DNA of 64,000 bases. Source: a virus. Each line of letters starts with the position of its first letter. Within the stretch, counting starts at the first letter, position 1. The translations under genes and the position numbers were made by a program. Positions 1 to 59,359 of this stretch are shown in pieces. The DNA lies in the IMG/VR virus record IMGVR_UViG_3300025168_016729, positions 1 through 64,000 of that record, one strand, 5' to 3'. The notes under the pieces were generated by a model. The model made no database searches. It was given only the letters and a program-made list of their open reading frames with translations, and had not been told where the DNA came from.

Positions 1-290
1 ATTTGAAACTTGTCGCCTGTTTCTTCCGCTAGTTTTTTATCAATATGGAAAGTAAACTGAGCCATATACATTTCTTTTTCAAGTTCTTTTGGAAGCCCTT
101 TACCTGTTTCATATTTCTTGCCGATTACGAGAATCAAGTCCTTGCGTGAGGTCTGGACACTATCGCTGGGGATAACCTCGTCAATAATATACTTGACGTG
201 AGGTATTACCTTGCGGGTCAGTTCTGTTGTGGCTGCTTCGTATTTTCCCTCTTGGAGAAAACCTCGCCACTGTTCCATAATCAGTTTCAT
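1..290 (-). CDS. Partial protein with capsid-targeting-like N-terminus
   Basis: The 5' part of a gene that runs off the window; about 96 codons are visible. It starts at the ATG at 290, which overlaps the TGA of the upstream gene (ATGA). The N-terminus reads MKLIMEQWRGFLQE. It is close to the leaders of the next three genes upstream and, like them, ends in L-x-E, the type of site cut by T4-family prohead proteases. The rest is charged and contains no motif I recognise. By analogy with T4 internal proteins I infer a packaged head protein, but the function is unknown. Confidence 0.7.
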   Translation of the reverse strand, partial: MKLIMEQWRGFLQEGKYEAATTELTRKVIPHVKYIIDEVIPSDSVQTSRKDLILVIGKKYETGKGLPKELEKEMYMAQFTFHIDKKLAEETGDKFQ

Positions 291-886
291 CGTGATTGTA
301 CGGTGTAGGTTTTTTGTTCACCGCCTCCGAAACTGTCTGTCTTGAAATCGTCCTTACGCATTACGGTAATTACTTTTATTGTGTCCGGACCTTTTCGCAT
401 ATCCAAAACGGCTATGACGTTGAGGGCTGGGACCTTACCTTTGCCGACCATACGAATATGGAAAGGCTCGTCGTTGCCGAGTTCGCCGTTAGCAAAGTCT
501 TGAATGATTTTGCCGATGGCCATCTCAACTGCTTGGATAATGGCCTTATTGGAAATCTTTTCGTCGTGACGGAACTGGCGTTCCTTGCTGTGTTTAGTTC
601 CCTCAAGGTCAGTATCTTTTAAATTGATAATAACATTGACACCACGAACTTTTGTGCTATATGCTTGTTCGGCGTCAAGATCAGCCATCTTCTCTTCCAT
701 AAGGTGGTCGGCTGGGCGTCCTTGGCTTATCCAGTCTTCAACAACAAATACTTTTTGGTCTTCCGACAAATTCCAAAAAACCGCCTGGGAGTCTTCACTG
801 AGACGGGAGGCATATTGCTTGTAGATCTTTTCATTTACTTTGTGGACTTTTTGAAAGTTCCGCCATTCTGTCATTAACTTTTTCAT
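287..886 (-). CDS. Hypothetical protein, capsid-targeting-like N-terminus
   Basis: A 199-residue protein. A longer reading exists from 919, but the ATG at 886 overlaps the upstream stop (ATGA) and gives the N-terminus MKKLMTEWRNF shared with the neighbours, so I chose it. Unlike its neighbours it continues FQKV, so the L-x-E cleavage-type motif is missing directly after the leader; a V-N-E follows at about residues 17-19. The middle is helical and charged. The C-terminus (AVLDMRKGPDTIKVITVMRK) looks like a small beta-sheet module that I recall from other marine phage proteins but cannot name. Function unknown; part of a five-gene translationally coupled run. Confidence 0.75.
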   Translation of the reverse strand: MKKLMTEWRNFQKVHKVNEKIYKQYASRLSEDSQAVFWNLSEDQKVFVVEDWISQGRPADHLMEEKMADLDAEQAYSTKVRGVNVIINLKDTDLEGTKHSKERQFRHDEKISNKAIIQAVEMAIGKIIQDFANGELGNDEPFHIRMVGKGKVPALNVIAVLDMRKGPDTIKVITVMRKDDFKTDSFGGGEQKTYTVQSR

Positions 887-1350
887 CACTTGTCTCCGAA
901 GTCGTTTCTTTCCTGCCATTCGTAGGACACGCTGTCTTCTTTAATTGGTCCACCTTTTGCCCAAGTATAACAGGAACGGGCTGAATGGCATTTGAAGTGA
1001 TGCATCCAACAGTAACCAAGCTCACCGTCATCATCGGAGGTTTCGCCAGGCATACAGTCTTTCATTCGTGGGGAAATATCAAAAGCGACGCAGTTGCCGC
1101 AGTTAGACTTCTTGGCTGCTTCTTCGGTTGTGTCCCAATACTTGGCGATGTCTTTCCAGTAATCGCCGGGCTCATCAACGTTTAGAGGACCATACTTGAT
1201 ATGGTCTGCGTGAATAGCAGCATCACGGTTTTTGGTATTGAGCTTTAAGTCTTGAGTAGCGGGGGGGCAAACATAATCCTTAACCGCTCCAATAACAACT
1301 TTCATTTCTTCTTGGAGAAAACTTCTCCACTCTGTCATTAGTTTTTTCAT
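886..1350 (-). CDS. Cysteine-rich protein with capsid-targeting-like N-terminus
   Basis: A 154-residue protein starting at the ATG at 1350, whose A overlaps the upstream TAA (TAATG). An in-frame start at 1371 would lose the shared leader. The N-terminus MKKLMTEWRSFLQE ends in L-Q-E, a T4-type prohead protease site. The second half has a cysteine/histidine-rich module: NCGNC, then a further Cys, then GYCWMHHFKC and SCYTWAKGGPI. The spacing suggests bound zinc or an iron-sulfur cluster. Similar modules occur in environmental phage proteins of unknown role. If the leader works as in T4, a metal-binding protein would be carried in the capsid; this is inference. Confidence 0.75.
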   Translation of the reverse strand: MKKLMTEWRSFLQEEMKVVIGAVKDYVCPPATQDLKLNTKNRDAAIHADHIKYGPLNVDEPGDYWKDIAKYWDTTEEAAKKSNCGNCVAFDISPRMKDCMPGETSDDDGELGYCWMHHFKCHSARSCYTWAKGGPIKEDSVSYEWQERNDFGDK

Positions 1351-1727
1351 TACCATGCTTTGCAAGACCAATACCCTGCGGTTGTCTTGTCTCCTTTTTT
1401 CATCTTGTCCGCACAGTTGTGACGAGCACGGAAGTTGCTGCGGGCTTCAGGGTTTGATTTTTTGATTTTCATATCAGGGTCGCCGAAGTTTACCTTAACT
1501 ACGTTTCCCTTTTTGTTCTTAACATAAACTTTAGATTTTTTTACATCACCTTGCATGGGCTTGTTAAGAGTGACCTTGCGTCCTTGGTACTCTGCCTCTT
1601 CTATAACATCATCCCAGAACTCTACGTCTTCGGCAAGCGTGCCGTCCTCATAGGTCGCATCCGAGATGTGATAATATTCTTCTTCTTCGTTGAGGAACTG
1701 TCGCCACTCTGTCAGTAATTTTTTCAT
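1350..1727 (-). CDS. Small basic protein with capsid-targeting-like N-terminus
   Basis: A 125-residue protein starting at the ATG at 1727, which overlaps the preceding TGA (ATGA). The leader MKKLLTEWRQFLNE ends in L-N-E. An acidic linker follows (residues about 14-45). The C-terminal domain carries KVYVKNKKGNVVKVNFGDP, then FRARHNC and ends GYWSCKAW. I recognise this C-terminal module as one widespread in head-associated and uncharacterised proteins of marine phages, without knowing its biochemical role. The two conserved Cys residues and the basic character suggest nucleic-acid or metal contact. Co-transcribed with the other leader-bearing genes. Confidence 0.8.
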   Translation of the reverse strand: MKKLLTEWRQFLNEEEEYYHISDATYEDGTLAEDVEFWDDVIEEAEYQGRKVTLNKPMQGDVKKSKVYVKNKKGNVVKVNFGDPDMKIKKSNPEARSNFRARHNCADKMKKGDKTTAGYWSCKAW

Positions 1728-2233
1728 CCTTTTTTACCTGCCTTTGATTTTTTGCCGTAGTTACCACTCTTGCTACACGCTGATGGCGTTGGGCGACACT
1801 TCGGATATTTTGCTCTATCTTCTCCTGTAGAGCGACCACAGGAGCTACATTTCTTTTTGCCTGATTTTTTGTCTTTGCGGCAGGTATTACAATCTACCCA
1901 ACCCTTTTTTTTACCAGGCGCACCTTTACGACCAAACCACTTTCGTAGTCCTTCGCTGTCGGCTTCGGTGAGTTTTGCTATTTCTTCTTCCACAACTTGA
2001 CGGAGGTAATCGTCCTCTACGCCTTCTTTTTTGCTGTTGCCCCAATTTTTAGCACCAACCTTACGGCATTTTACAAGAGCACCGGAAGCGTAAGCAGAAG
2101 GCCATACGTCATAGCGTGATTTCACTTTATGATAGCAGGCGTCTTTTTTGCCGCCCTTCTTCTTTTTTTTCTTTTTCTCGTCAAGTAAGGTTTCTTCCAC
2201 CATACCCCGAAGTTGAGAAATTGTTACTTTCAT
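1724..2233 (-). CDS. Highly basic two-module protein, candidate packaged DNA-binding protein
   Basis: A 169-residue Lys-rich protein. The ATG at 2233 has a good ribosome site (GAGGG, 8 bases upstream). Four parts can be seen: a leader MKVTISQLRGMVEE; a Cys-containing basic module (residues about 28-70, with CYHKVKSRYDVWPSAYASG and ALVKCRK); a second leader-like helix (LRQVVEEEIAKLTEA, about 77-91); and a second Cys-rich basic module (about 95-169, with WVDCNTCRKDKK, CSSCG and KCRPTPSACSKSG). Both modules recur in phage proteins of unknown function. The charge suggests DNA binding, and the leaders suggest head packaging with cleavage between modules. Both points are inference. Confidence 0.8.
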   Translation of the reverse strand: MKVTISQLRGMVEETLLDEKKKKKKKGGKKDACYHKVKSRYDVWPSAYASGALVKCRKVGAKNWGNSKKEGVEDDYLRQVVEEEIAKLTEADSEGLRKWFGRKGAPGKKKGWVDCNTCRKDKKSGKKKCSSCGRSTGEDRAKYPKCRPTPSACSKSGNYGKKSKAGKKG

Positions 2234-3190: not shown

Positions 3191-3358
3191 TTATTGTTCC
3201 TCGTGCTTTGAGATATGATGAGGAGGAACCCAATATTTATCGTCACCAAAAAGAACCTGATAATAATTTGTGATAGCACTGACCACGCCGAGGCGTGGTA
3301 CAGCACCGTCAAAAGTAAACCAAACAAGTTCACCGATTTCAAATTTGGTCTCTATCAA
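3191..3358 (-). CDS. Small 55-residue protein
   Basis: A small open frame in the gap between the primase and the HAD gene. It starts with TTG at 3358, overlapping the TGA of the upstream gene (TTGA), and its TAA lies directly before the primase TTG. The product begins (M)IETKFEIGELVWFTFDG and has alternating hydrophobic and charged residues typical of a small beta-barrel, possibly SH3-like. It contains VLFGDDKYWVPPHHIS near the end. It fills the gap exactly and is coupled on both sides, which argues that it is real. Function unknown. Confidence 0.7.
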   Translation of the reverse strand: MIETKFEIGELVWFTFDGAVPRLGVVSAITNYYQVLFGDDKYWVPPHHISKHEEQ

Positions 3359-3960
3359 AACCCTAATTCTTTAAGTTGTCTAATCGTATTATCCACATTA
3401 TCTGGGTTGTGTTTAATAGCAATGCCGCCACCCTCACGGAACTCGTTGACATACTTATCACGGTCGTCAATCAGAAGTCCTTGTTTTCCGTTCCAAACTC
3501 CGTAGGGCTTCTTGCTGTCAGAAAGATTGACTTTTTCAACTGGGACGCCCAGTTCTCGCTCAACCCACATCCGCTTGCCAACCTTGGAACCTTCAGCCAT
3601 CGGAGCAGACAGAATCTCAAGCCCTGGGATATCTTTAATGTAATTCCAAAGATCTTTGCCGCCACGCTCCCACTCAAGGTTTGCCCAAAGGTCAACGTCG
3701 TTTTCTACAAGACGATACATAAAGTCTCGGACCCGATAGTTACGGGGCAAGCTCTTTTCTTGATCGGATCGGGCAATATGCCACTTGTCAATCTCAACAT
3801 CCCAGCCGCCGATCTCTTTGGCTGCCGAACGGGCAAGTTTGTGATCAGGATGATCGGGTTGATCTTTTAATTCCTGAAAACGTTGGTTCATAAATTTTAG
3901 AACGCCACCCTCAAAATTGACGAGGACACCATCCATATCGCTAAAGACTTGGTAACTCAT
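3355..3960 (-). CDS. HAD-family phosphatase, 5'(3')-nucleotidase type
   Basis: A 201-residue HAD-fold hydrolase. Motif I is FSDMDGVLVNF at the N-terminus (nucleophile and acid-base Asp). Motif II is the Ser in EILSAP. A Lys lies around SDSKKPYGVW, and motif IV is LLIDDRDKYVNEF. This pattern fits deoxyribonucleotidase-like proteins that phages carry for nucleotide-pool or cap-end dephosphorylation; the substrate is not visible. The start is the ATG at 3960 with GGGAGGTG upstream rather than the ATG at 3984, which would add eight residues in front of the first beta strand. A sigma70-like promoter precedes it. Confidence 0.82.
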   Translation of the reverse strand: MSYQVFSDMDGVLVNFEGGVLKFMNQRFQELKDQPDHPDHKLARSAAKEIGGWDVEIDKWHIARSDQEKSLPRNYRVRDFMYRLVENDVDLWANLEWERGGKDLWNYIKDIPGLEILSAPMAEGSKVGKRMWVERELGVPVEKVNLSDSKKPYGVWNGKQGLLIDDRDKYVNEFREGGGIAIKHNPDNVDNTIRQLKELGF

Positions 3961-3982
3961 AGGAGCACCTCCCTTCAACACC

Positions 3983-4010
3983 ATAATACCATATGTTCTT
4001 AGTAGGTCAA
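3983..4010 (-). promoter_or_regulatory. Sigma70-like promoter
   Basis: The minus strand has TTGACC (4010-4005), a 16-base spacer and TATTAT (3988-3983), followed about 20 bases later by the ribosome site of the HAD gene. It matches host sigma70 consensus at 5 of 6 positions in each box, which suggests an early or middle gene promoter driving the HAD, small-protein and primase genes. Confidence 0.55.
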
Positions 4011-4019
4011 GAAGTTTTT

Positions 4020-4454
4020 TTAATCTTCTTTGGCATCAAGATAGGCAGCTACTGCCATCTGTTGCTTTTTCTTTTTTGACTTGCCCTTAAACTGTGGGGC
4101 ATCAGAATCTTGGAAGTCTTTGACGTAATCACCTGCTTTAGCATCTTTGTCAAGTTTTTCTCCCATAACATGATCATATTCAAGATAATGCTTGACAACA
4201 CCAATGTAATCAGCTACCTTTGTCAATTTGCTTTGAATCCAAGCAGGCAACTCTTCATTATCATCAAGCATGTCAAAAATAATCGTAGCATACTCGGCGG
4301 TCTTAAACATTTGTCGCTTGGCCATGTTTCCCTCATGATCTTCACTCGCATGGGTGGGATCTATAGCCATATCAATGGACTGTGCATCATCGCTGCACAT
4401 CTCTTGTATTTCTTCTTTGATCAATTGACGAATAATGTCTTGAGAAATCTTCAT
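4020..4454 (-). CDS. Hypothetical protein with KISQ-type leader
   Basis: A 144-residue protein. The N-terminus MKISQDIIRQLIKEE is an amphipathic helix ending in I-K-E and then I-Q-E, again an L/I-x-E pattern. An acidic stretch is followed by a helical domain (MAKRQMFKTAEYATIIFDML and ELPAWIQSKLTKVADYIGVV) that I recall from many marine phage genomes without a known role. The C-terminus is basic (GKSKKKKQQMAVAAYL). It lies apart from the leader-bearing operon at 1-2233 but may belong to the same class of head-packaged proteins (inference). Confidence 0.75.
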   Translation of the reverse strand: MKISQDIIRQLIKEEIQEMCSDDAQSIDMAIDPTHASEDHEGNMAKRQMFKTAEYATIIFDMLDDNEELPAWIQSKLTKVADYIGVVKHYLEYDHVMGEKLDKDAKAGDYVKDFQDSDAPQFKGKSKKKKQQMAVAAYLDAKED

Positions 4455-40043: not shown

Positions 40044-40205
40044 TTATTCTTCAATTTTAAAAGTTGGAGGATTAGAAACAAATACCTCATCATCTTTAAC
40101 TTCTAAGTCCCAATTACGTAAAAGTTCAGTAATGTCTTGTTCTTCCGTAAGACACTTTTGTAAAGTCATCAGAAGGGTCCCTACGGCTTGGTTTGATAGT
40201 TTCAT
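40044..40205 (-). CDS. Small 53-residue conserved phage protein
   Basis: A short frame starting at the ATG at 40205, which overlaps the TAA of gmd (TAATG). The sequence [19 protein letters not shown], then EEQDITELLRNWDLEVKDD and a PP-T-F ending, resembles a small protein I recall from many T4-like marine phages. It is acidic and helical at first, then a short beta end. Strong coupling with gmd and a tidy fit to the gap support it. Function unknown. Confidence 0.72.
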   Translation of the reverse strand: MKLSNQAVGTLLMTLQKCLTEEQDITELLRNWDLEVKDDEVFVSNPPTFKIEE

Positions 40206-41191
40206 TATTTTATCTCCTTATTTTGGATATATTTGAAGTCAGCTTCAAACATTATCTTTGCTAGTTCTTTAAATCTGGTTTTTGGTTCCCACTTTAATTG
40301 TTCTCGTGCTTTTGATGGGTCTCCCAAAAGCAACGGAACCTCGTGAGGGCGAAAAAGTCTCTCATCTATATGAACATATTTTTCAACGTCCAGGTCTGCA
40401 TGATTAAACACTTCTTCTAAAAATTCTCTAACTGTGTGAGTTTCGCCTGTCGCTATAACAAAGTCATCAGGTTTTTCTTCCTGCAACATTAGCCACATAG
40501 CCTCTACGTAATCCTTGGCATATCCCCAATCTCTCTTGGCATCTAGGTTACCTAAGAATAATTTTTCTTGAAGACCTAGTTTAATCCGTGCCGCTGCTAA
40601 AGTTATTTTACGAGTAACAAAAGTCTCGCCTCTGCGAGGCGATTCATGATTAAAAAGAATACCGCTACATAATTTAAGATCATATGATTCACGATAATTG
40701 CGGATCAAATGATGGGCAAAAACTTTTGCGCACGCATAGGGTGATGCAGGTTGGAGAATAGTATCCTCGGATTGGGGAACCTCTGGGTTGTCTCCGAACA
40801 TTTCAGAAGAAGATGCTTGGTAAAATTTAGTATGTGGGGATACACTTTTAATAGCATTTAATAATCTCATTGTTCCAATGGCCACGCCATCTACAGTATT
40901 TTCAGGTATATCAAAGGATACACGAACATGAGACTGAGCAGCAAGATTATACAATTCATCCGGCTGATACTTTATCAATAATGAATACATACACGATGAA
41001 TCATTTAGATCAAAATATTCTAGGGTAAAATTATCATGATCATAAATATGGTTTATTCTATCTGTATTAATGAGTGATGTTCGGCGTTTAAGTCCTACTA
41101 CTTTATAATTCTTTTCTAATAACAACTCAGCAAGATATGATCCATCTTGTCCTGTAATGCCAGTAATTAAAGCTATTTTTTGTTTGGTCAT
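40205..41191 (-). CDS. gmd: GDP-mannose 4,6-dehydratase
   Basis: A 328-residue extended short-chain dehydrogenase that converts GDP-D-mannose to GDP-4-keto-6-deoxy-D-mannose. The NAD(P) site GITGQDG is at residues 11-17, the catalytic Ser-Glu pair is in SSSEMFG (about 128-133), and Y152-x3-K156 lies in PYACAKVFA. The C-terminal [15 protein letters not shown] is diagnostic of this family. Its product is the common substrate for the three sugar enzymes encoded just upstream (GDP-fucose/colitose synthase, ColD-like dehydratase, perosamine-synthase-like aminotransferase). It ends the sugar cassette in transcription order. Confidence 0.92.
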
Positions 41192-41212
41192 AATTCATTT
41201 TACACTTAAAAT

Positions 41213-42148
41213 TTATTTTTTATAGCCTCTAATGTTCGGATAACTATTTTTAAACCACTCACAGGTCTCTAAAAGACCTTTTTCTATATTTGTATATGAA
41301 GACAGAGGAAACCCTAATGATTCTAAATTTGCATTTGAAGAGGGTTTCTTATGTTGTCCAGAAAGTTCCGAAATATTCCAATTAATGTCTGTTTTTAAAT
41401 CCATTATCTTATGAATCAAGTTTGCCAAATCTTTAATACTAAGACTAGAAGTGTTTCCTATGTTTATAGGGTGCTCTCCATCATAGTTTTCCAATAAAAA
41501 TAAAACAACCCTAGCAATATCACCTACATAAGTAAATTCCCGTATCGGTGATCCATCGCCCCACAATTCTACATTTGTATTATTAATTTTTGCTTCGTGC
41601 ATTTTCCTTATCATAGCCGGAATAACATGAGAATCCTCTAAATCAAAGTTGTCATATTTCCCATACATATTATTAGGAACTACCGTAATGAAATTAGACC
41701 CATATTGTTGACGATATGCTCGGGACTGCACATCCAACATTCTCTTTGCATATGCATAGGCAAAGTTAGTCCAATGAGGTTCGCCAAGGTGTATATTTTT
41801 TTCTTCTAAAGGGTAGGTAGTAGATGCCGGATAAACACAAGTACTCAACATAGACAAAAGCTTCTTCACATTGTATTTAGCAGCACACTTAAGGACGTTA
41901 GTGTTGATTAAAATATTGTCGTTATAGAAGTCAGCCAAATACGAATGATTTGCTTTTACTCCACCTACTCGTGCGGCTAAGTGAATTACAGACTCTGGCT
42001 TATATTTTTCAAACATACTGGCGCACTGGGAATATTCCCTGAGGTCGTATTGCTTAGAGGAAACAAAGTTGGCATTAGGTACAATCTCCTGAAGGGATTT
42101 ACCCACCATCCCAGAGCCGCCTGTTACTAGTAGTTTGTCTTCTTTCAC
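41213..42148 (-). CDS. GDP-L-fucose / GDP-L-colitose synthase (epimerase-reductase)
   Basis: A 311-residue short-chain dehydrogenase of the GDP-fucose synthase family: NADP site VTGGSGMVG, then IHLAARVGGVKANH, catalytic Ser in LSTCVYP, and Y-x3-K in AYAYAKRML. These enzymes epimerise C5 (and C3 in fucose) and reduce C4. With the ColD-like gene directly upstream, the product may be GDP-L-colitose (ColC role) rather than GDP-L-fucose; sequence alone does not separate them. The start is GTG at 42148, directly after the TAG of the ColD-like gene. Confidence 0.85.
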   Translation of the reverse strand: MKEDKLLVTGGSGMVGKSLQEIVPNANFVSSKQYDLREYSQCASMFEKYKPESVIHLAARVGGVKANHSYLADFYNDNILINTNVLKCAAKYNVKKLLSMLSTCVYPASTTYPLEEKNIHLGEPHWTNFAYAYAKRMLDVQSRAYRQQYGSNFITVVPNNMYGKYDNFDLEDSHVIPAMIRKMHEAKINNTNVELWGDGSPIREFTYVGDIARVVLFLLENYDGEHPINIGNTSSLSIKDLANLIHKIMDLKTDINWNISELSGQHKKPSSNANLESLGFPLSSYTNIEKGLLETCEWFKNSYPNIRGYKK

Positions 42149-43306
42149 CTACTTTACTGAAGAATTAATAATATCAGAAATAATATCAATCTCCACCTCT
42201 CCCATTTCATGATTGTTTGGGATATACATGCCAAACTTATCTACTTTTTCTGCATTAGGTAAAGATACTTCACCATAATGCTGCTTCCATACTGGTTGAT
42301 TCCCCAGGTTTCCGCAGACCAGAGGCCTTACTTCTATATCAGCATTTTGAAGATTTTCAACAATCTTTTCACGATGAGGAGAAATTACTGGATATGCAAA
42401 ATTAGAAACATACTCATCCTTACGAATCTCAGGAGACCAAAAATCGTTTTTAATTTTATCAGCGTAGAGTTGATAATTATGTTCACGAACTTTGCACATA
42501 TTAGCTGCCTTCTTAAGTTGGTTAATTCCAATAAAGGCGCTTAGATCCGTGGACCTTAAATTAAAGCCAAAATGATAAAATTTATATAGGTTTTCAAAAT
42601 CTGAAACTTGATGGGCTTCTCTCAAAGAATTTCTATGATCTTCGTCCATGTCTCTATCCCAACCATGACTGCGGATACTCTTCAAGACATTATAAATCTC
42701 GCGATCATCAGTGTTAATAACACCACCCTCTATTGTAGATAAGTGATGTCCAAAATAAGTTGAAAAAGTACCCATAAGACCAAAGGATCCTAAATTTTTT
42801 CCTTTATGCCGAGAACCAAACGACTCACATGCATCTTCAAGAGGTATAACATTATATTTTCTACAAAGATCTAAAATTTTATCCATCCGAGGGACGAGAC
42901 CCAAAATAGAAACAATAATTACTGCTGCTGGGTTGTTCTTTTTATATATGTCTTCTAAATGATGCAGATCAACAGATAGATCTTCTAGGTTACAATCACA
43001 TAAGATGGGGTTAAGTCCTAGTTGAACAACTGGTGCTAAATCAGTAGCCCATGAAACGGCGGGTACAACCACCGTGTCTCCTTTTTTTATTTTGCCCGTT
43101 TCTAGCAACGTATATAGCATTAGTAAATTAGCAGATGATCCTGAATTGACAAAGACGCTATATTTAGTTCCTATAAATTTAGACCACTCTTCTTCAAAAG
43201 TAACTGTAAGCTCTCCTTTTGTTAGCCGTGGATACGTTTGGAGCCACTCTATTAGCTTATCAATATCTTGGTTATCAATTGTATTTTTAACTAAGGGTAT
43301 TTTCAT
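42149..43306 (-). CDS. GDP-4-keto-6-deoxymannose 3-dehydratase, ColD-like (catalytic Lys replaced by His)
   Basis: A 385-residue PLP-fold protein of the DegT/DnrJ/EryC1 family. Where aminotransferases carry the Schiff-base Lys before EGG, this one has His-His (H187-H188 in STYFGHHLSTIEGG). That change marks the sugar 3-dehydratases ColD and RfbH/E1. It lacks the extra C-terminal Cys cluster of E1, matches ColD in length, and sits beside gmd, whose product ColD uses. Other features include PLEDACESFGSRHKGK and AGGVINTDD-type segments. Predicted reaction: removal of the C3 hydroxyl of GDP-4-keto-6-deoxymannose, using glutamate to recycle PMP. Confidence 0.85.
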   Translation of the reverse strand: MKIPLVKNTIDNQDIDKLIEWLQTYPRLTKGELTVTFEEEWSKFIGTKYSVFVNSGSSANLLMLYTLLETGKIKKGDTVVVPAVSWATDLAPVVQLGLNPILCDCNLEDLSVDLHHLEDIYKKNNPAAVIIVSILGLVPRMDKILDLCRKYNVIPLEDACESFGSRHKGKNLGSFGLMGTFSTYFGHHLSTIEGGVINTDDREIYNVLKSIRSHGWDRDMDEDHRNSLREAHQVSDFENLYKFYHFGFNLRSTDLSAFIGINQLKKAANMCKVREHNYQLYADKIKNDFWSPEIRKDEYVSNFAYPVISPHREKIVENLQNADIEVRPLVCGNLGNQPVWKQHYGEVSLPNAEKVDKFGMYIPNNHEMGEVEIDIISDIINSSVK

Positions 43307-44220
43307 TGGTGTATCTCCACAAAAAATTCACATTCAAAGCGCCCAACATACTCAGACCTGTGATCTTCTAAAAAATTTTCTGATTTAGGGGACGCCAATA
43401 CCGTGTTTATTTCCTGAATAACCAGATTTAAATATTCAGTAAATCCATCTCTCCAGTGGGGTCTATATTCTTTTCTTGTCATCTCTAGAGATCCATGAAG
43501 GTCGGGTCCAACTGGTTTTATCCCATAACTTAGACTTTTAGTCCTAGGGTGGGAAAATAAAATTCCCCACAAGGCAGGAGGAAACAGATTAGTAACACCT
43601 TTTTTACCAGCCCATTCTGCCGTCACTCTTAAAAAATTTAGGGATTTCTCATTATCCTCATTGGTCAGGTTATCTTGGTATCCATATCCTGTTATTTCCT
43701 GGTTCAAATAATAGGCAGGGTGGGTGGGAAGAGCCATTTGTGTTCTAAGAAGAAGTAATGAATTGCAAGAATCATATATCATTTTGATAATATCGTATGG
43801 CTGAGGGAGGTAACATAAAGTACTATCCATAATACAAATATCATATTTCATAGAGGGTTTAAACTCTGCTATATTCTTTTCTATAAACTTTACATTTTTA
43901 TTTACTTTAAAATATTCTCGTCCTGTTTTTATGCAGGTAGAATTTATGTCTACCACTGTATAAGAAAAGGGAATGTTTTTGAAAATTTCTTTTTTTAAGA
44001 AATGGTACTTGCGGCCGTTGCCGCCGCCTATGTCAATAACTGATATTTTTTCTTTTTGTTTTGAAATTTCTAAAATATATTTCTTGAATTCTTGATCAAT
44101 TTTTGTACTGCTTATTAAAGTCTGAAGTGGGTAATCTACCGTATCGTACCCCAACTCTTCGGCGGTGTTGGGGTCGGACCATATTTTATTATTTAATGCA
44201 TCATATACATTATCATTCAT
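43303..44220 (-). CDS. SAM-dependent methyltransferase (class I-like)
   Basis: A 305-residue protein with a Rossmann-type SAM motif VIDIGGGNGRKYHFL (about 61-75), an acidic strand end in YTVVDINSTC and a post-II motif around YDICIMDSTLCYL. It overlaps both neighbours by ATGA within the sugar cassette, so it probably methylates a sugar or a glycan terminus, but the substrate cannot be read from the sequence. The C-terminal half (PPALWGILFSHPRTKSL) looks family-specific. Similar proteins occur in polysaccharide clusters. Confidence 0.75.
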   Translation of the reverse strand: MNDNVYDALNNKIWSDPNTAEELGYDTVDYPLQTLISSTKIDQEFKKYILEISKQKEKISVIDIGGGNGRKYHFLKKEIFKNIPFSYTVVDINSTCIKTGREYFKVNKNVKFIEKNIAEFKPSMKYDICIMDSTLCYLPQPYDIIKMIYDSCNSLLLLRTQMALPTHPAYYLNQEITGYGYQDNLTNEDNEKSLNFLRVTAEWAGKKGVTNLFPPALWGILFSHPRTKSLSYGIKPVGPDLHGSLEMTRKEYRPHWRDGFTEYLNLVIQEINTVLASPKSENFLEDHRSEYVGRFECEFFVEIHQ

Positions 44221-45311
44221 TTAAAAAATTCCTTAACAACACTAATAACTTTGCGTTGGTTTTCCTCTGTTAGGCTGTAAGATGAAGGAAGCGAAATTCC
44301 AGTGTCGTACGACAAAGTACTTTTTTTAAAGTTGTTTGAGTCTAGAGCTAAATTCTCATAACAAGGTTGCTTGTGAAGGGGGTAGAAAAAATCTCTAGTT
44401 TGAATGTTTTTATCAGCAAGAAATTTTTGTAGATCATTCTTGTGCTCTGTAAAATAAGAAGCAAACCAATGTACCGGCGTGATATGAGGCTTAAAACTTA
44501 GAGGATTAAGTTCGGAGATATGCTGTAACTCTCTCAAATATTTGGTACGAATTTGGTCTTTTTTATTTATAATTCTTTCCAGTTTGTTAAGTTGGGCTAG
44601 TCCAATCGCTGCTTGCATCTCTGTAAACGCAAAATTATAGCCTATGTGAGAATGAATAAAGACTCCCTTCTTGTCTCTCCCGTGGTTTTTTAAACGATAA
44701 CAGGAGGCGGCCAACTCATCATCGTTTGTAAGTACGATGCCGCCTTCTCCGCATGTGATTGTTTTATTCCCATAGAAAGATAAAATGCCTAAGTCACCAA
44801 ACGTTCCAACGTGCTGGTTATCATATTTAACTCCAACTCCCTGTGCTGCATCTTCTATCATGTATAAGCCATATTCTTTACAAATTTTTTGTAGCCTATA
44901 AAGATTAGCTGCTCCGCCATAAAGATGTACTGGCATTATTACTTTGGTCGCCGATGTTATGCTTTCTATGACTTTATCACAATTTAATCCTAAATCTTCT
45001 AAATTTATGTCAACCATTACTGGGGTGGCACCAGTCATAATTACCGCATTAGCTGTAGCGATAAAAGTCATATCAGGAACAATAACCTCGTCGCCGGGAC
45101 CTACCCCTAGAGATTTTAAGCAGCAAAACAAGGCTGCTGTTCCATTTGTCATAGAGACAGCGTGTTTGGACCCTGTTAGATCTCTAATCTTTTGTTCAAA
45201 TTCTTTTGTAAGATCGTGCTCAGTAACATAAGTGGATTCAATCACTCGTAATAACTGAACTCTCTCTTCTTCGCCAATCCACGGCTCAATCTGATTAATA
45301 AAGTCCGTCAT
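44217..45311 (-). CDS. DegT-family sugar aminotransferase, perosamine synthase-like
   Basis: A 364-residue PLP aminotransferase. K183 in SFYGNKTITCGEGG is the Schiff-base Lys, D154 in YMIEDAAQGVG binds the PLP ring nitrogen, and TNGTAAL forms the phosphate site. The motif around GNKTI and the segment GYNFAFTEMQAAIGLAQL resemble RfbE/PerA, which aminates GDP-4-keto-6-deoxymannose to GDP-perosamine. The substrate would again be the Gmd product. Other 4-keto sugars cannot be excluded. It overlaps the DUF6165-like gene by 17 bases and the methyltransferase by four. Confidence 0.85.
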   Translation of the reverse strand: MTDFINQIEPWIGEEERVQLLRVIESTYVTEHDLTKEFEQKIRDLTGSKHAVSMTNGTAALFCCLKSLGVGPGDEVIVPDMTFIATANAVIMTGATPVMVDINLEDLGLNCDKVIESITSATKVIMPVHLYGGAANLYRLQKICKEYGLYMIEDAAQGVGVKYDNQHVGTFGDLGILSFYGNKTITCGEGGIVLTNDDELAASCYRLKNHGRDKKGVFIHSHIGYNFAFTEMQAAIGLAQLNKLERIINKKDQIRTKYLRELQHISELNPLSFKPHITPVHWFASYFTEHKNDLQKFLADKNIQTRDFFYPLHKQPCYENLALDSNNFKKSTLSYDTGISLPSSYSLTEENQRKVISVVKEFFK

Positions 45312-45672
45312 AAGACTTCTGCTCTTGGATATTAGATTTGGCGTGAATATTAATCTTATTCTTTATAAGGAATCTCTTATCATTCAATTGGGCATCCAAG
45401 CGAGCATGTTTTACAAATTCATCCCCAAAATCATGGTTCTTTTCGCAATCACGAATAATATCCTCGGTTTCCCACAGGGTTAGATTAATTTCTTTCAACT
45501 CCTGTAGCATCTCTTGAGGAACAGAAACGTTATTCTCGTTGAGTCGGTGTTCCAATACACCTAATTCATGACGAACGTGTTTTAGTTTGTCTTCATCTTC
45601 AATTTTTTCTAACTTAATTTGCAAGATGGTGATTTTATCTAAAACTTCACCGATTGATACTTCTATTTTCAT
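45295..45672 (-). CDS. DUF6165-like small protein
   Basis: A 125-residue helical protein beginning MKIEVSIGEVLDKITILQIK, a start I recognise from the DUF6165 family. These proteins are found beside glycosyltransferase genes in capsule and O-antigen clusters; their role is unknown. The long heptad-like helices (KHVRHELGVLEHRLNENN and following) suggest a coiled coil, perhaps a scaffold for glycosyltransferases. Family name is from memory and should be checked. Confidence 0.65.
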   Translation of the reverse strand: MKIEVSIGEVLDKITILQIKLEKIEDEDKLKHVRHELGVLEHRLNENNVSVPQEMLQELKEINLTLWETEDIIRDCEKNHDFGDEFVKHARLDAQLNDKRFLIKNKINIHAKSNIQEQKSYDGLY

Positions 45673-46545
45673 TTAGTCACCTCTTAATAAATTTAGATGG
45701 TAGTCTATTTTTAAAAACTTATCTACGTTTTCCATATTATACGGTGTATTAGAAATTTGGTTAAATTTTTCTTCAGTAAGTTCATCCCATGTGTTTAGAA
45801 AAATTCCGGGTATATGATGATAAGAAAATAAATTGTATATGGTATTATGTAAGTTAATGGGAATAGTTCCTACTGCCAAACATTCGTAATTACGATGTAC
45901 ATCAGGACCAGACCCTTCCAGACAAATAACAAATTGATATTCATTCAATAGACTCATATATTCAGACCAGCCTAATTTATCTCTCTGGGTGTCTACAAAA
46001 GGCAATTTACTTAACATTTCAAAACACTTTTGTCGCTCCGGATTAGTGTTAAATGTATGATACGGTAAAAGAATCTTTTTCTTTTTATTTTGATGAGCAG
46101 TTGACTGCTCATTATGAGAAATAATAAGACTTTGATCGCCACCGGCTCTTTCTTTTTCTTCAAATCCAATTGGAAGAGGAATAATTTTATCATGCAAGAT
46201 ATCTGGAGGATTTGTACACGACCATTTTATAAGATTAGGATTTTGTAGTATCTGCTGATAAGATAAATCACCATTAGAGCCAATATGATAGGAAGATATG
46301 CCACTAATCAATTTAAAAGGATTTTTAATCTTAGGCAAGATTTCATTTTGAAAATAAGGATGAAAAATATAGTCAGTCTTTACATAAATTATATCACCCG
46401 CTTGTACGTCTGTTGGATCAAAATGATCCTTATTGTGTAGCCTGCTCACGCCAGCTTCTTTATAAAAATCATCCGAACGGTCTATTGCATGATCTGCAAT
46501 TGCTGGCATCCAGTTATAGAAGATATATGAGTTTTCATTAATCAT
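45673..46545 (-). CDS. Exostosin-like glycosyltransferase
   Basis: A 290-residue protein from the ATG at 46545 (a non-ATG start at 46605 would add 20 residues overlapping the gene upstream). The C-terminal half carries FVICLEGSGPDVHRNYECLA followed by VGTIPINLHN, the pattern of exostosin/GT47-type enzymes in which a sugar-nucleotide site contains a conserved Arg-x-Tyr-Glu. GGAG lies 11 bases before the ATG. No signal peptide or membrane segment, so it acts in the cytoplasm. Donor and acceptor unknown. Confidence 0.65.
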   Translation of the reverse strand: MINENSYIFYNWMPAIADHAIDRSDDFYKEAGVSRLHNKDHFDPTDVQAGDIIYVKTDYIFHPYFQNEILPKIKNPFKLISGISSYHIGSNGDLSYQQILQNPNLIKWSCTNPPDILHDKIIPLPIGFEEKERAGGDQSLIISHNEQSTAHQNKKKKILLPYHTFNTNPERQKCFEMLSKLPFVDTQRDKLGWSEYMSLLNEYQFVICLEGSGPDVHRNYECLAVGTIPINLHNTIYNLFSYHHIPGIFLNTWDELTEEKFNQISNTPYNMENVDKFLKIDYHLNLLRGD

Positions 46546-47248
46546 ATTTGATAATGCTCCATTTTTTAGTTGTATAATTACCCAAAGGCTGATTTCTAAA
46601 ATCATGATAAAAGATGTGATCTGTTTGTGCGTATAAATCTATGAGTGATTTAAAAGAACTCTCCATGCAATGAATTTCTTCCGCTTTTTCTAAAATCAAA
46701 AAGAAATGAAGAGCATTTTCAGTAATATCATTTTCAATAACAAGAAGATCAGGATTTAAAATATGTTTTCTATCAACCTTAAAGCCTCTACTCTCGTCAT
46801 CATGAACGAAAATAAACTTTTCGTTATTAGGGTTTAACTTACTTAAAACTCTCTCTTCTTCCTTTATATCTCTTTCTACATAAAACATATCTGTGCGTAC
46901 TTCATAAGGTATTTTTACCTGGTCATAGAAAAATTCCCAACAATTCTTATCGTACTTTTCTTCTTCCTCAAATGGATAAAACTCATGGCCAACTCTCAAA
47001 AAATGAGAACACTTACCCGAGTTGGCATATTCCGCTACCTGCTCATACTCGTCCTTATTACCATCAATTTTAACAACAATTATTTTGTCATTATCACGGT
47101 ACATATACTCAATCATTTCCCAATACTGGTGTTTAGAGAATATATGAACCTCATCAAATTCAGATTCCTTAAGAATATATCTAACCATCCCATTACAGTC
47201 AAAATGATCGCCTAGTCCCAGATGGTGATGAATGCATAAACTTTTCAT
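46538..47248 (-). CDS. Putative glycosyltransferase, GT-B N-terminal type
   Basis: A 236-residue protein. The N-terminus SLCIHHHLGLGDHFDCNGMV is a glycine-rich first loop like those of GT9/GT-B-fold transferases that I have seen in marine phage and cyanobacterial clusters. The C-terminal part (VIENDITENALHFFLILEKA then IHCMESSFKSLIDLYA) fits the sugar-nucleotide side of a GT-B fold. It is shorter than typical two-domain enzymes and may be a compact version. Overlaps the next gene upstream by ATGA-type coupling. Confidence 0.6.
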   Translation of the reverse strand: MKSLCIHHHLGLGDHFDCNGMVRYILKESEFDEVHIFSKHQYWEMIEYMYRDNDKIIVVKIDGNKDEYEQVAEYANSGKCSHFLRVGHEFYPFEEEEKYDKNCWEFFYDQVKIPYEVRTDMFYVERDIKEEERVLSKLNPNNEKFIFVHDDESRGFKVDRKHILNPDLLVIENDITENALHFFLILEKAEEIHCMESSFKSLIDLYAQTDHIFYHDFRNQPLGNYTTKKWSIIKYD

Positions 47249-48069
47249 AAGTATTCTTTCCCAAATGTCACTAATTCTTCTACATAATTATCTAAAATAT
47301 ATTGACGATAATTTTTCTGCTGCTCAAGATCATCATATACAGAACAATCAAACTCTATATCACCAATAATTTGTTTAGGGGTTTCCAAGGGCATGAAGTC
47401 TAAGTTATTAACAACCGGGTCATAACGATGATTTATAAATTCCGTTGTGTGTTTATAATTGTGAAATTCATAATGTTTGTACCACAGTTGTTTCAGGGCA
47501 TAAAATCTACGATTAACTGCCTGAAGGTGTATAATTCCTATATCCTTGGTGGCAGACTTAGGTAATGAAACTGGGGGTGTTCTTGGGGTATGATACTTCC
47601 AGTCATCCATGTTAAAATTACCAGTCTTATCCAAGGGTAAAATAAAGCTTCTAAAGTTATTCACATATTGAGGATCTTGTCTTGTTTGGGTCAATGTATT
47701 GTTAACAACATTATACCAATACAAATGCCAATCCACTGTTTCGTACAAAGAAATAATTTGAGAGAAATTATCCACTAAATTAGCCGACAAAAGTTCGTCA
47801 CAATCAAAACATATTACATGACTTGCTTTATTTTCTCGGCTATATTCTAGCATCTTTGACCGGTTGTATGATTCGTGAAACTTATCTAACTTATCATTTA
47901 GGATGATGGCTCGCGAGCCTAAATGCTTCTTAATAATGTTTACCGTATCATCCGTAGAATTATCGTTATAAAAAACAAATTTTTCTAATGGATATTTTTC
48001 CCATATCGGCAGAAGAGCACTCAATAAAACCTCTTCGTTTTTTACCATTATGTTTCCATGAACATTCAT
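47245..48069 (-). CDS. Glycosyltransferase family 2-like (GT-A)
   Basis: A 274-residue protein with a GT-A layout: GNIMVKNEEVLLSALLPIWE at the start, FVFYNDNSTDDTVNIIKK (the donor-base loop), and the metal-binding DxD in VICFDCDELLSA (about 92-98). This is typical of GT2 or GT92-like enzymes that use a nucleotide sugar. A His-rich region (IGIIHLQAVNRR) may form the acceptor side. Overlaps its neighbours by ATGA. The donor may be one of the GDP-sugars made by this cassette. Confidence 0.75.
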   Translation of the reverse strand: MNVHGNIMVKNEEVLLSALLPIWEKYPLEKFVFYNDNSTDDTVNIIKKHLGSRAIILNDKLDKFHESYNRSKMLEYSRENKASHVICFDCDELLSANLVDNFSQIISLYETVDWHLYWYNVVNNTLTQTRQDPQYVNNFRSFILPLDKTGNFNMDDWKYHTPRTPPVSLPKSATKDIGIIHLQAVNRRFYALKQLWYKHYEFHNYKHTTEFINHRYDPVVNNLDFMPLETPKQIIGDIEFDCSVYDDLEQQKNYRQYILDNYVEELVTFGKEYL

Positions 48070-48761
48070 TTCTTTTCATCCCGGCTATTATTATAAACAT
48101 CATCAAAAAATTCGTCTGCATCCAGAATCTTATCATTGCCGGCATATGCCTGTCCTATAAAATGATTAGCGTCACGGGGATGAGAATAAGGAAAAGTTGG
48201 CTCGCCATAATGGTTTCCAAAAAATTCATCATGAACAAAAACATTACCTCGTACAAGTGGGTAGATTTTTTCTCTTAAAAAGTTTTGATCAACTTGCCAA
48301 AAATCACCTTTAGAGTACTCGTCAATATAATTCTTCATATGTTTTAGGAAAGGATTTCTAACTCCCCACATGCCGCCTAAGATTTCCGTTGCATGATAAG
48401 GGTGATCACGCATTATATGAAAATCTTTATCACTTTCCAGCCACTGCTGAACCGCTAAAACCTCTCTAGTTGTTGGTCGGCTATCTACATCTCTACAGAT
48501 CATAACATCAACATCTGGATCAGATGCGTCTTCAAATCGCCAAAACATTCCTTTCCAATTACACTCTTCGGTTCTTAAAATTAGTTCAGTATTATTAAAG
48601 GAATTTAAAGTTTCTATAATCTTTATTGGAGTTGAATCTCCAATATGAAATCTACATACCCAATCTTTATACAATCTTTGAGCAAGCTCTACATTTCTGA
48701 TAGCGCCGTCAGTATAGCGTGTATCATCGCCCCATAGTGAGTATGAAATAATTTTTTTCAT
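48066..48761 (-). CDS. Glycosyltransferase-like protein (GT-A, DxD)
   Basis: A 231-residue protein beginning MKKIISYSLWGDDTRYTDGA, a start seen in small GT-A-type proteins of polysaccharide clusters. VMICRDVDSRPTTREVLAVQ carries a DxD-type metal site with a following Arg. YSHPRDANHFIGQAYAGND lies near the end. No membrane segment. I recognise the general pattern but not a specific family. Coupled with both neighbours, so it acts in the same glycan pathway. Confidence 0.65.
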   Translation of the reverse strand: MKKIISYSLWGDDTRYTDGAIRNVELAQRLYKDWVCRFHIGDSTPIKIIETLNSFNNTELILRTEECNWKGMFWRFEDASDPDVDVMICRDVDSRPTTREVLAVQQWLESDKDFHIMRDHPYHATEILGGMWGVRNPFLKHMKNYIDEYSKGDFWQVDQNFLREKIYPLVRGNVFVHDEFFGNHYGEPTFPYSHPRDANHFIGQAYAGNDKILDADEFFDDVYNNSRDEKK

Positions 48762-50374
48762 TGTTCAAATATATCCCGGAATCTGTTTAAAATTTCTTGT
48801 TCTTCTAGAGTCTTTTTTTGATGATTTTCCGGTGAAGTACTCAAGCCCTTGGGGTTGAAATAATATAGGCCTAAAACTTGAGACACTCGTTTAAATACAC
48901 TACCAGACTTTACACACCTCAGCCAAAATTCTAGATCACCAGCAGAGCTATATTTTTCATCAAAATATCCATATCTTTCATGAAGATCTTTTTTCCACAA
49001 AGGCATACACCCAGGCAAACATTTAAACATTAGTTTAGGATCATATTCATGGGTTTCAAAAAGTTGACGACTTTTGGTAGTATAAAAAGTTTCATCCGCT
49101 TGCCCAGTTATGAGAAAAGCAGGATAGACTAAATCAATTTCAGAGGAAGAAGTAATTTCTTTTAAGCACAATTCTAAATTATCATATGATCGGCAGTCAT
49201 CTAAATTAGCGTTTGTGATATATTTTGCTGAACTATTCTTTATTGCTATATTCCAAGCTCCATATACGCCTGGATCTACTTCTTGATAGTAATAAATAAT
49301 ATTAGGATATTTTTCCATATATTTATCAATAACTGTCTTTTCATAACTGGTTTCTGTTTTATTGCAGTCTACTAAGATTAATTCGCATTTAGAAAATATG
49401 GTTTGTTGAGTAATTTCGTTTAAAAATTTATCTATAAATTCCGAACCATTATATACCGAAGTTATAATTGATATTTCTGGATTCTGAGAGACAAAAGAAT
49501 TAGAATGGGCGTCTGAAGAATTGGAATTTACTAGTTCACAGATTTCCGCTAATTTCTCTCTTTTGTGAGTGATAACTTCTTGTAATAATATTTCTTGATC
49601 AGAATAAGTATACTTTTCATTTATAGCCCCTACCATATCATTTGTTATAACTTTACACCCCGCTAATTTTGCCTCCATAAAAATCCGAGAAAAAGTTTCT
49701 GGACTAGATGGTAAAAATGCAAAATATTCGTACTGTAGCAGTTTTTCAAAGAGACTATAAGGGTCTGGTTCGGAAACCAAGTCATATTCTAAATTATTTT
49801 CCTTACAATAGTTTTCAGCAGCGAGTTGACCCTTTATAGGATTATCGCTCTTCATAATAGCTACTTTAGGATGGCGTAAGATATTTTCCGAAATCTTACT
49901 CTTTACATTATCTAAAAAATGGTCGCTCCAAAATGACCCACCCATGTTATACAGGTTGTTAAAGAGAGGTAAATTTTTAGTTACAATATCTACGTGGTAT
50001 TGTGATTGACAGCATACCCTTGTTGCATTTTTGTACAAACTTTTATATACTATTTGATTTTCGGGTACTTTAAAATTAACATACTTTGCAGGGTTTCTAT
50101 TTGAACAATATTTGTGATCATGTTCATAAATCAAGTAGTTTAAGGATTCTAGTTTTTCTATAGCATCAGCGGGAACCGACAAAAAACTTCCTAAGATAAA
50201 AAAACAATTTTTTCTTGTCTGCAAATATGCTGGCGTAATCTTAAAACCATGTACTTCTTCTACATTAAGTCCATTATTGCGCAGATAGTTTACTATTTCT
50301 TTATTTGCAAGTTCTGCGCCGCCTTGTGGGATTTCTTCCACAAAACCATCAGCTACAAAAACAACATCCACCAT
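48758..50374 (-). CDS. Two-domain glycosyltransferase (GT-B plus GT2)
   Basis: A 538-residue fusion. Residues 1-290 look like a GT4-type domain (FVADGFVEEIPQGGAELANK, HPKVAIMKSDNPIKGQLAAE, LPSSPETFSRIFMEAKLAG with the E-x7-E-like sugar-nucleotide segment). Residues about 300-538 form a GT2 domain (EISIITSVYNGSEFIDKFL, CELILVDCN, ITNANLDDCRSYD, SAGDLEFWLRCV), with the donor-binding loop, a DxD-like site and the ExW-type acceptor motif. One polypeptide could add two sugars in turn. It overlaps the gene downstream by ATGA and is one base from the one upstream. Confidence 0.75.
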   Translation of the reverse strand: MVDVVFVADGFVEEIPQGGAELANKEIVNYLRNNGLNVEEVHGFKITPAYLQTRKNCFFILGSFLSVPADAIEKLESLNYLIYEHDHKYCSNRNPAKYVNFKVPENQIVYKSLYKNATRVCCQSQYHVDIVTKNLPLFNNLYNMGGSFWSDHFLDNVKSKISENILRHPKVAIMKSDNPIKGQLAAENYCKENNLEYDLVSEPDPYSLFEKLLQYEYFAFLPSSPETFSRIFMEAKLAGCKVITNDMVGAINEKYTYSDQEILLQEVITHKREKLAEICELVNSNSSDAHSNSFVSQNPEISIITSVYNGSEFIDKFLNEITQQTIFSKCELILVDCNKTETSYEKTVIDKYMEKYPNIIYYYQEVDPGVYGAWNIAIKNSSAKYITNANLDDCRSYDNLELCLKEITSSSEIDLVYPAFLITGQADETFYTTKSRQLFETHEYDPKLMFKCLPGCMPLWKKDLHERYGYFDEKYSSAGDLEFWLRCVKSGSVFKRVSQVLGLYYFNPKGLSTSPENHQKKTLEEQEILNRFRDIFEQ

Positions 50375-50375
50375 A

Positions 50376-51635
50376 CTAAACTACCTTTATTTCGGTGTTA
50401 GTATTATCCCAATCTTTCTTGTTATTATAAACATCAGCACAAATACTACCAATTTTATCATATTGTTCTTTTTCAGAAAATTTCTCTTTGAGATACGTCT
50501 GTAAAGTTGCGGCTATATTTCTTTTTGCTATGTGAGCATTTACCATATTTCTCATAGCCTTTTTAGAACTATTCATATCACAGTGGGCCCACTTCATATC
50601 GGGAAACAAAATATTGTCCATTACTGCACCTTCACCTATTTCCTTAATATCACATCGTATTCTTTCATACATGTCCTTAGATTTTTTACCTTGACCAATC
50701 TTAAGAAAATCTAAATGTCCCGACCATCCCGAAACACACACAGGCATTCCACTATATGCAGCCTCAAAAATGGGTAAACCAAAGCCCTCGCCATGTGTAG
50801 TACTCACATAAGCATTAATCTGAGGATGGGTATATAAGCCATGGATTTCTTCTTCAGTCATAGATCCATGAATCCAGTGAATTTTACATTTTGCATCTTT
50901 AAAATTTTGACGGAGGGGAGAGAACAATTGTTTGTCTAACATCTGCCGATCAAATATAGAATTATTCGCATGATGTATTTTTGCTACTAATCCAATATTT
51001 TCATTATGAAACTCTTCCATAAACCAATGTAAAAGTTGTTCCACCCCTTTACGAGGAGAAATCTGAGATATCGTTAGGAAATTAAACTCGGTATCTAAAG
51101 ATATTTTATCTTCCAAAGACATAGGTGTAATAGATTTAACCGGATATCCCACTACATCAGAACTGGTTGAGATACCGGTTCTCTGAATGACAGAATTTGA
51201 ATTTTCTGCCTGAAGATTGAAAATGGTGTCAGTAAACCCTTTTTGAGAATGTTTACTGGTAAATATAATATGATCCATAGAATTAGATGGGTTAACCCAT
51301 GAAACAGGAATTCTGTCCGTCTCAATTCCAGCAGTTATACCTATATTGCAGTTTGATGGAAATTGTTGTGAATATGAATCCCATTCATTTGGTACCGTAA
51401 CCTGAATTACTAGGTCATAATCTCCTTTAAATAATTCTTTCTTTATCACCAGAGATTCATAGAGCTTAATATTCCTATCGTTATCAGAAATCCAACTAGA
51501 ATTACCCCAATGAATAGGATGAGCATGTAAATCAAAAACTTCAGGCTGACTATTCAGGGCATTAATAATAAACCGGCCGTGTTCTCCATATCCGCTACGT
51601 GTAAATAATGGTGAAATAACTAGAGTTCTTATCAT
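50376..51635 (-). CDS. Glycosyltransferase family 4/1-like (GT-B)
   Basis: A 419-residue GT-B enzyme. The N-terminal glycine loop is in LFTRSGYGEHGRFIINAL, the second domain begins at FNFLTISQISPRKGVEQLL, and the donor site is HGEGFGLPIFEAAYSGMPV with the E-x7-E pattern of GT4. No membrane segment. It overlaps the next gene upstream by ATGA and is one of two closely similar GT-B genes placed side by side. The donor sugar is not visible. Confidence 0.8.
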   Translation of the reverse strand: MIRTLVISPLFTRSGYGEHGRFIINALNSQPEVFDLHAHPIHWGNSSWISDNDRNIKLYESLVIKKELFKGDYDLVIQVTVPNEWDSYSQQFPSNCNIGITAGIETDRIPVSWVNPSNSMDHIIFTSKHSQKGFTDTIFNLQAENSNSVIQRTGISTSSDVVGYPVKSITPMSLEDKISLDTEFNFLTISQISPRKGVEQLLHWFMEEFHNENIGLVAKIHHANNSIFDRQMLDKQLFSPLRQNFKDAKCKIHWIHGSMTEEEIHGLYTHPQINAYVSTTHGEGFGLPIFEAAYSGMPVCVSGWSGHLDFLKIGQGKKSKDMYERIRCDIKEIGEGAVMDNILFPDMKWAHCDMNSSKKAMRNMVNAHIAKRNIAATLQTYLKEKFSEKEQYDKIGSICADVYNNKKDWDNTNTEIKVV

Positions 51636-59119: not shown

Positions 59120-59359
59120 TTATTTTTCCTCTTTAAGGAGATTTAGTTCAGATTCTAAGGACTCAATACGTTCGTTTAGTCCTCTAAGCTGTCTCTTTAT
59201 ACCACGAAGATGTTCTTTTGCCAAGTTAATTCTGTTTGTATCTCTTTTATTTGTGACACGAACACTACTAATTATGTCGTTAAGAGCCTGCACTGATGCG
59301 GCTGCATCTAATCTAAATTGTTCGTTTAATAAAAAAGACTTTGTGATTTTTTTCCACAT
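59120..59359 (-). CDS. Small coiled-coil protein
   Basis: A 79-residue, all-helical protein; LRGLNERIESLESELNLLKE shows clear heptads. It is adjacent to virion genes and ends directly before the ligase fusion start. Possibly a small virion or assembly protein; no motif recognised. Confidence 0.6.
   Translation of the reverse strand: MWKKITKSFLLNEQFRLDAAASVQALNDIISSVRVTNKRDTNRINLAKEHLRGIKRQLRGLNERIESLESELNLLKEEK

Follow-up and report, generated by a model that had tools for sequence, protein, structure and literature searches.

The internal proteins of bacteriophage T4 encoded by ipII and ipIII start with MKTYQEFIAE. A review of the mutational work on this signal assigns targeting mainly to residues 4 and 7 and processing to residues 8 and 10 (PMC9026906). 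The common leader is the only part that Ip1-3 share, and each of the three proteins blocks different type IV restriction enzymes (PMC12373910).

We analyzed a 64,000-nt stretch of DNA from a marine phage related to T4 (hereafter the window), comprising bases 1-64000 of a virus record of 64,636 bases in total. Its minus strand carries, from 2233 to 1, five coupled leader genes, four with a leader of W-R-x-F type (class A) and one with a leader of a second type (class B). The start and stop codons of adjacent genes overlap by a few bases in the style of a coupled operon, and the contig ends within the operon, leaving the last gene incomplete. A preliminary description of this DNA had reported leaders in consecutive coupled genes, three of the four W-R-x-F leaders ending in L-x-E; all five are present as described, and the count of three is correct. 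That survey overlooked class B as such, an LME site in gene 886-287 and, beyond the operon, a sixth leader gene of class B (4020..4454, minus strand; start MKISQDIIRQLIKEE, leader MKISQDIIRQLIKEEI). The proposed likeness to the T4 capsid-targeting sequence holds at all four experimentally mapped targeting and processing positions: in MKKLLTEWRKFLKE, WRKFLKE aligns with YQEFIAE at precisely these places (aromatic-x-x-aromatic-L/I-x-E). This alignment uses the C-terminal part of the leader, which is 14 residues long and not 10.

All except three of the longest non-overlapping open reading frames (ORFs) of the window lie on the minus strand, and the window also encodes a sugar/glycosyltransferase-like block, PhoH, a primase-like gene and a RuvC-like gene. 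By eye, the extended block at 40205-52894 resembles sugar-nucleotide, aminotransferase and glycosyltransferase genes. A large protein encoded at 57125-59119 has KVDGQN, a ligase-like motif, close to its start, and its residues 422-603 weakly match a cytidyltransferase. The conserved 79-aa gene at 59120..59359 (minus strand; start MWKKITKSFLLNE), which a small gene starting MSLDKAWKDFLNE in other contigs resembles by eye (unscored), possibly encodes a core or internal head protein. A deoxyribonucleotidase-like gene (3355..3984, minus strand) bears no leader, and its counterpart in L028 bears the leader MEKVMKNWKRYLNE. Using the window's primase as query, we retrieved 29 viral contigs of marine origin, most of them with 79-94% identity, including the 190,528-b record of L003, whose primase is 91% identical to that of the window.

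The first gene of the operon (1724..2233, minus strand) starts with MKVTISQLRGMVEE, has the class B leader MKVTISQLRGMVEETLLDE and matches phrog_727 (E 2e-23). Behind the leader, the basic module CYHKVKSRYDVWPSAYASGALVKCR is joined by an acidic helix, with KLTE at its end, to another basic Cys module; in this gene and its relatives, basic Cys modules alternate with acidic helices that end in L/I-x-E. This suggests that the product is a polyprotein that is cut into DNA-binding peptides, although cutting and binding are inferred. The initial reading of the cargo as host-directed effectors or DNA-binding proteins is refined here, as this product resembles a polyprotein built from basic modules of DNA-binding type rather than a single effector. 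The basic Cys-module family (window 1724-2233; L119 from 5825; L030 from 26185) also occurs in cyanophages and in Flavobacterium phage immuto.

The next gene (1350..1727, minus strand) carries the class A leader MKKLLTEWRQFLNE on phrog_7595-type cargo. It reads MKKLLTEWRQFLNE-EEEYYHI, and the L001 orthologue (95% identity across the aligned part) reads MRITKSQLRQIIKEEVSSVLNE-EEEYYHI with a class B leader and a junction at LNE, so that leaders of both classes stand on the same cargo. In the third gene (886..1350, minus strand), the class A leader MKKLMTEWRSFLQE precedes a Cys-rich CPPATQDLxLNTKNRD domain; other phages have homologues of it that bear the annotation high potential iron-sulfur protein. 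In Actinomycetia phage DSL-LC01 (L314 1156-1890), a Cys-rich CPPATQDI domain is fused to a different N-terminal domain, and the gene adjoins a capsid maturation protease gene, directly upstream.

The fourth gene (287..886, minus strand; start MKKLMTEWRNFQKV) has a class A leader without L-x-E, followed by a 50-aa insert ending in HLME and then the domain EKMADLDAEQAYS. Its orthologues place the leader's I/L-x-E directly before the domain that LME precedes in the window gene (ADHLME-EKMADLDAEQAYS, compared with MKKLMTEWRKYIKE-EKMADLDAEQ in L006 and MHNIFTGWKRFLAE-EKMSDLG in L026). From this comparison and the sequence, we predict a cleavage site at L-M-E, codons 62-64 (695..703, minus strand). 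The fifth gene (1..290, minus strand), cut at the contig end, has the class A leader MKLIMEQWRGFLQE and reads MKLIMEQWRGFLQE-GKYEAAT, compared with MKKLMTEWRNFLHE-GKYEAAT in L001. Its full orthologue in L003 is 276 aa long with an HEIQH (HExxH) motif and, by this motif alone, is possibly a zinc metallopeptidase. AlphaFold models of two cargo families, including this orthologue, were poor (mean pLDDT 40 and 47), and a PDB sequence search with the cargo gave no usable match.

In these individual cases, the aligned proteins place the exchange of leaders on orthologous cargo, including exchange between the two classes, exactly at L-x-E. At internal module junctions, L-x-E was found on 174 of 392 sides in raw pairs against 79 expected; with homologous junctions collapsed and the first 24 residues excluded, the values were 0.27 and 0.15 (p = 0.15). 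As this grouped statistic is not significant, we do not rely on junction enrichment.

To see how widely the leader occurs, we scanned viral contigs with a degenerate leader DNA pattern in which several positions were fixed. Counting all loci, the leader heads at least 259 distinct ORFs, which fall by BLAST into at least 120 unrelated cargo clusters, with 79 singletons among the matches listed; the claim that the domains behind the leaders are unrelated holds. Pfam domains among the cargo representatives include ART-PolyVal, NUDIX, GNAT, zeta toxin, AAA_33, protein kinase, cytidylyltransferase-like, LigT phosphoesterase, S-adenosylmethionine lyase and amidase. An ADP-ribosyltransferase domain behind the leader at the same locus was found only in relatives (ART-PolyVal, E 6e-15 in L007 and 1e-7 in L026) and is absent from the window fragment.

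Since the pattern fixed several positions, we checked the C-terminal part of the leader only on the primase-derived relatives, picking unique ORFs by the first ~9 leader residues. An aromatic-aliphatic-x-E sequence stands at exactly positions 11-14 in 52 of these 64 ORFs and is displaced by one in several of the remainder. When a leader profile was run over all six frames of two near-complete relatives, 18 windows scored 17.8-30, every one near an ORF start, and no other listed window exceeded 13. On these sequence grounds, occurrence of the leader by chance is excluded. In near-complete relatives (L034, L043, L046, L057), many small genes arranged in runs begin with the class B leader MKITKSQLRKIIKEE, and a similar start (MKKSELKNIIKECVKEV) lies inside a head module (G001:C1:16814-17200). 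Flavobacterium phage immuto has class B leaders, and a gene starting MENNFDIHKWQAKFLKE lies just after its annotated prohead protease. We also considered the leader as a copy of the gp23 N-terminal helix (T4 ELLNKWKPLLEG) and rejected this idea, as the leader profile missed gp23 N-termini.

The breadth of the cargo bears on the possibility that these proteins are prohead core or structural head parts that are cleaved and then kept or lost during assembly, with no role in the host. T4 core proteins are likewise cleaved, class B-type genes occur within the head module, and the basic Cys-module family lies near gp15/gp16 in cyanophage S-SM1 and is called structural in S-B43. However, close relatives differ in their cargo, in which ADP-ribosyltransferase, zeta-toxin, kinase, SAM lyase and Nudix domains occur; such turnover and enzymatic content are unlike conserved structural parts. 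We regard the structural reading as unlikely for the set as a whole, and it may still hold for gene 2233-1724 alone.

At the DNA level, the preliminary description had noted that the leader DNA is repeated. Inside the window this is weak, with copies differing at synonymous sites, but in relatives it is strong: the 26-mer ATGAAACTCCTACTTGAAAATTGGCG, the first 26 bases, is exact in 28 of the 43 MKLLLENWR leaders listed, where codon usage predicts 0.02. It spans 17 cargo clusters and 24 loci of one lineage, with ~30% identity above and below. Exact 26-bp leader DNA occurs in unrelated genes of different contigs (L064, L065, L068, L085, L086, L087 and others) without likeness outside the leader. 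The window's own clade has its own shared DNA form in 9 of 25 MKKLLTEWR leaders. Such exact sharing over unrelated cargo would be expected if the leader were a DNA-level element, either a recombination site or a translation-initiation segment, and the peptide incidental. We consider this very improbable, as the peptide is kept while codons differ in the window and in many relatives, with 19 DNA forms among 22 MKLLMENWR leaders. Judged from these alignments, peptide conservation and short-range DNA exchange both operate on the leaders.

The capsid-targeting hypothesis would have been refuted by the absence of a T4-type prohead protease. A search of the window's own record for an S77 protease gave no match; this record is fragmentary and lacks the head module, so the question was resolved through relatives. 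Three near-complete relatives found by primase (G001-G003; the records of L003, L012 and L026) each encode an S77 prohead protease (E 1e-28 to 1e-31), and in relatives it is found in a head module with TerL, portal, scaffold and gp23. In the L003 and L026 records, the gene lies between portal-like and scaffold/gp23-like genes, the names of the head genes there resting on visual inspection and on comparison to the annotation of phage immuto. The relatives' S77 protease contains L-x-E in its N-terminal part (LLTE), and their gp23 reads QLLRE-TTT or QLLKE-ASS in its N-terminal part, i.e., LRE or LKE at the end of a T4-like propeptide. Beyond the three found by primase, S77 is present in 12 of 12 further leader contigs ≥150 kb (15 of 15 examined), compared with 3 of 7 leaderless, tRNA-sampled control contigs ≥150 kb, a small set from mixed habitats. 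The refuting condition is thus not fulfilled. We note that leaders and S77 could be associated without function, through descent from a common T4-like ancestor.

At the level of sequence, the leaders, the L-x-E junctions, the diversity of the cargo and the relatives' protease are all established. For packaging itself, we turned to published virion proteomics. In S-CREM2, mass spectrometry detected a SAM hydrolase, an APH-like kinase and a cytidylyltransferase in virions, and the authors left co-purification possible (PMC10665884). These proteins start with MKDFDSFLEE, MKRFDAFLTE and MKNFSSFLTE, respectively. A strict leader motif, set before the S-CREM2 proteins were read, marks 3 of the 28 non-structural proteins that were detected and none of the 165 that went undetected (p = 0.003). 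A loose motif ([LIV]xE ending at residues 8-22) fails to separate them (9/28 and 32/165, p = 0.10), indicating that the aromatic pattern is needed. Widening the strict motif post hoc, with L permitted at the first aromatic place and M or F at the aliphatic place, gave six S-CREM2 ORFs in six frames, five of them detected (p about 2.5e-4 by our own count). The S-SM1 cytidylyltransferase, which starts with MKKFSAFLNE, was detected in virions (PMC3037559), and the S-CRM01 kinase, which starts with MISFDQFLSE, is described as a virion protein (PMC10665884). Published proteomics establish the presence in virions of cyanophage proteins with the same leader plan. S-CREM2 gp12, a virion protein annotated as Cas9-like, carries RFASFMAE (residues 18-25) after an SRWSxW start, and S-CRM01 g128 has LSLDSFIKE at the corresponding position (L309 7704-10313; L320 8422-8973); the Cas9 annotation of gp12 looks doubtful.

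We found no virion proteomics for the window's own phage group, and a literature search on the leader strings returned no paper, as a broader search for marine capsid-targeting signals returned none on the subject. Packaging of leader-bearing enzymes is supported by independent proteomics in cyanophages and, in this phage group, is inferred.

These data also weigh against the idea that the leaders direct proteins to a site in the infected cell, be it the membrane or a factor of phage or host, and that L-x-E merely belongs to an amphipathic helix. In its favor, class B leaders are simply helices of this kind, and many of the cargo proteins are enzymes of metabolism with a possible function late in infection. 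Against this, cyanophage enzymes of the same plan are in virions by mass spectrometry; in orthologues, the joint between leader and cargo falls exactly at L-x-E, the one exception having LME at the start of the homologous domain; and S77 is present in every leader contig ≥150 kb examined. We consider cellular targeting improbable.

The explanation that we hold to be highly likely is that the leaders are capsid-targeting sequences whose cargo is packed, cut after L/I-x-E and injected, with packaging, cleavage, injection and cargo function all inferred in this phage. The amphipathic leader helix would bind the prohead core during head assembly and draw the protein into the prohead, where the S77 (gp21-type) protease would cleave behind L/I-x-E, removing the leader and freeing the cargo. 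The cargo would remain in the head beside the DNA, enter the next host on injection and act before phage gene expression. Enzyme cargo (ADP-ribosyltransferases, kinases, Nudix proteins, acetyltransferases and perhaps the metallopeptidase) may act on host or defense targets, and the basic Cys-module polyproteins may condense or protect DNA. The earlier inference of packaging and cleavage is well supported, although both remain inferences in this phage and the evidence for cleavage is indirect, resting on leader exchange at L-x-E and on LME in gene 886-287; injection and host-directed action rest on the T4 precedent only and are plausible.

If the leader is a packing signal, sequence alone would name the proteins that a marine phage brings into its host before transcription, and hundreds of uncharacterized small phage genes would become candidate early effectors or counter-defense proteins. 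It would also explain the kinases, cytidylyltransferases and SAM hydrolases in cyanophage virions, for which co-purification could not be set apart by those who found them. The leader further offers short packing tags for testing. We hypothesize, with doubt and confidence in equal measure, that in marine T4-like phages a portable 14-residue packing code, in some lineages also a 26-bp DNA cassette, builds a large, rapidly exchanged set of virion-delivered effectors in the manner of a secretion-system signal; leaders of two classes would be interchangeable, and the head protease would cut polyproteins into basic peptides.

Compared with the internal-protein system of T4, the marine system is a new and much larger version, in which leaders of two classes are interchangeable, a 26-bp leader DNA cassette is shared by unrelated cargo and some cargo is polyprotein-like. 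It shares with T4 IPI, IPII and IPIII (MKTYQEFIAE, cut by gp21) a short N-terminal helix with aromatic-x-x-aromatic-L/I-x-E, S77 in the genome, one leader on unrelated cargo and clustered genes. It differs in its 14-residue leader with W-R and its two classes, and in its scale, with about 15-20 leader genes per near-complete genome and at least 120 cargo clusters, some of the cargo polyprotein-like. T4 Alt, a head-packaged ADP-ribosyltransferase, parallels the ADP-ribosyltransferase cargo behind a predicted gp21-type site, whereas the ART-PolyVal domains here are on small proteins with a common leader. The cyanophage virion enzymes (S-CREM2 SAM hydrolase, APH-like kinase and cytidylyltransferase; S-SM1 T4-GC190) have the MKxFxxFLxE plan and overlapping cargo types, but their leader is T4-like with 10 residues, and the available parts of the source papers do not mention a leader. 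In phiKZ and SPN3US, many head proteins are cut after glutamate (by gp175/gp245) and ejected, with S/A-x-E as the cleavage motif in phiKZ. Finally, polyvalent proteins of phages and conjugative elements, which are proposed conflict effectors, have domains of the ART-PolyVal type; these proteins are multidomain, whereas the marine cargo is small and single and stands behind a common leader.
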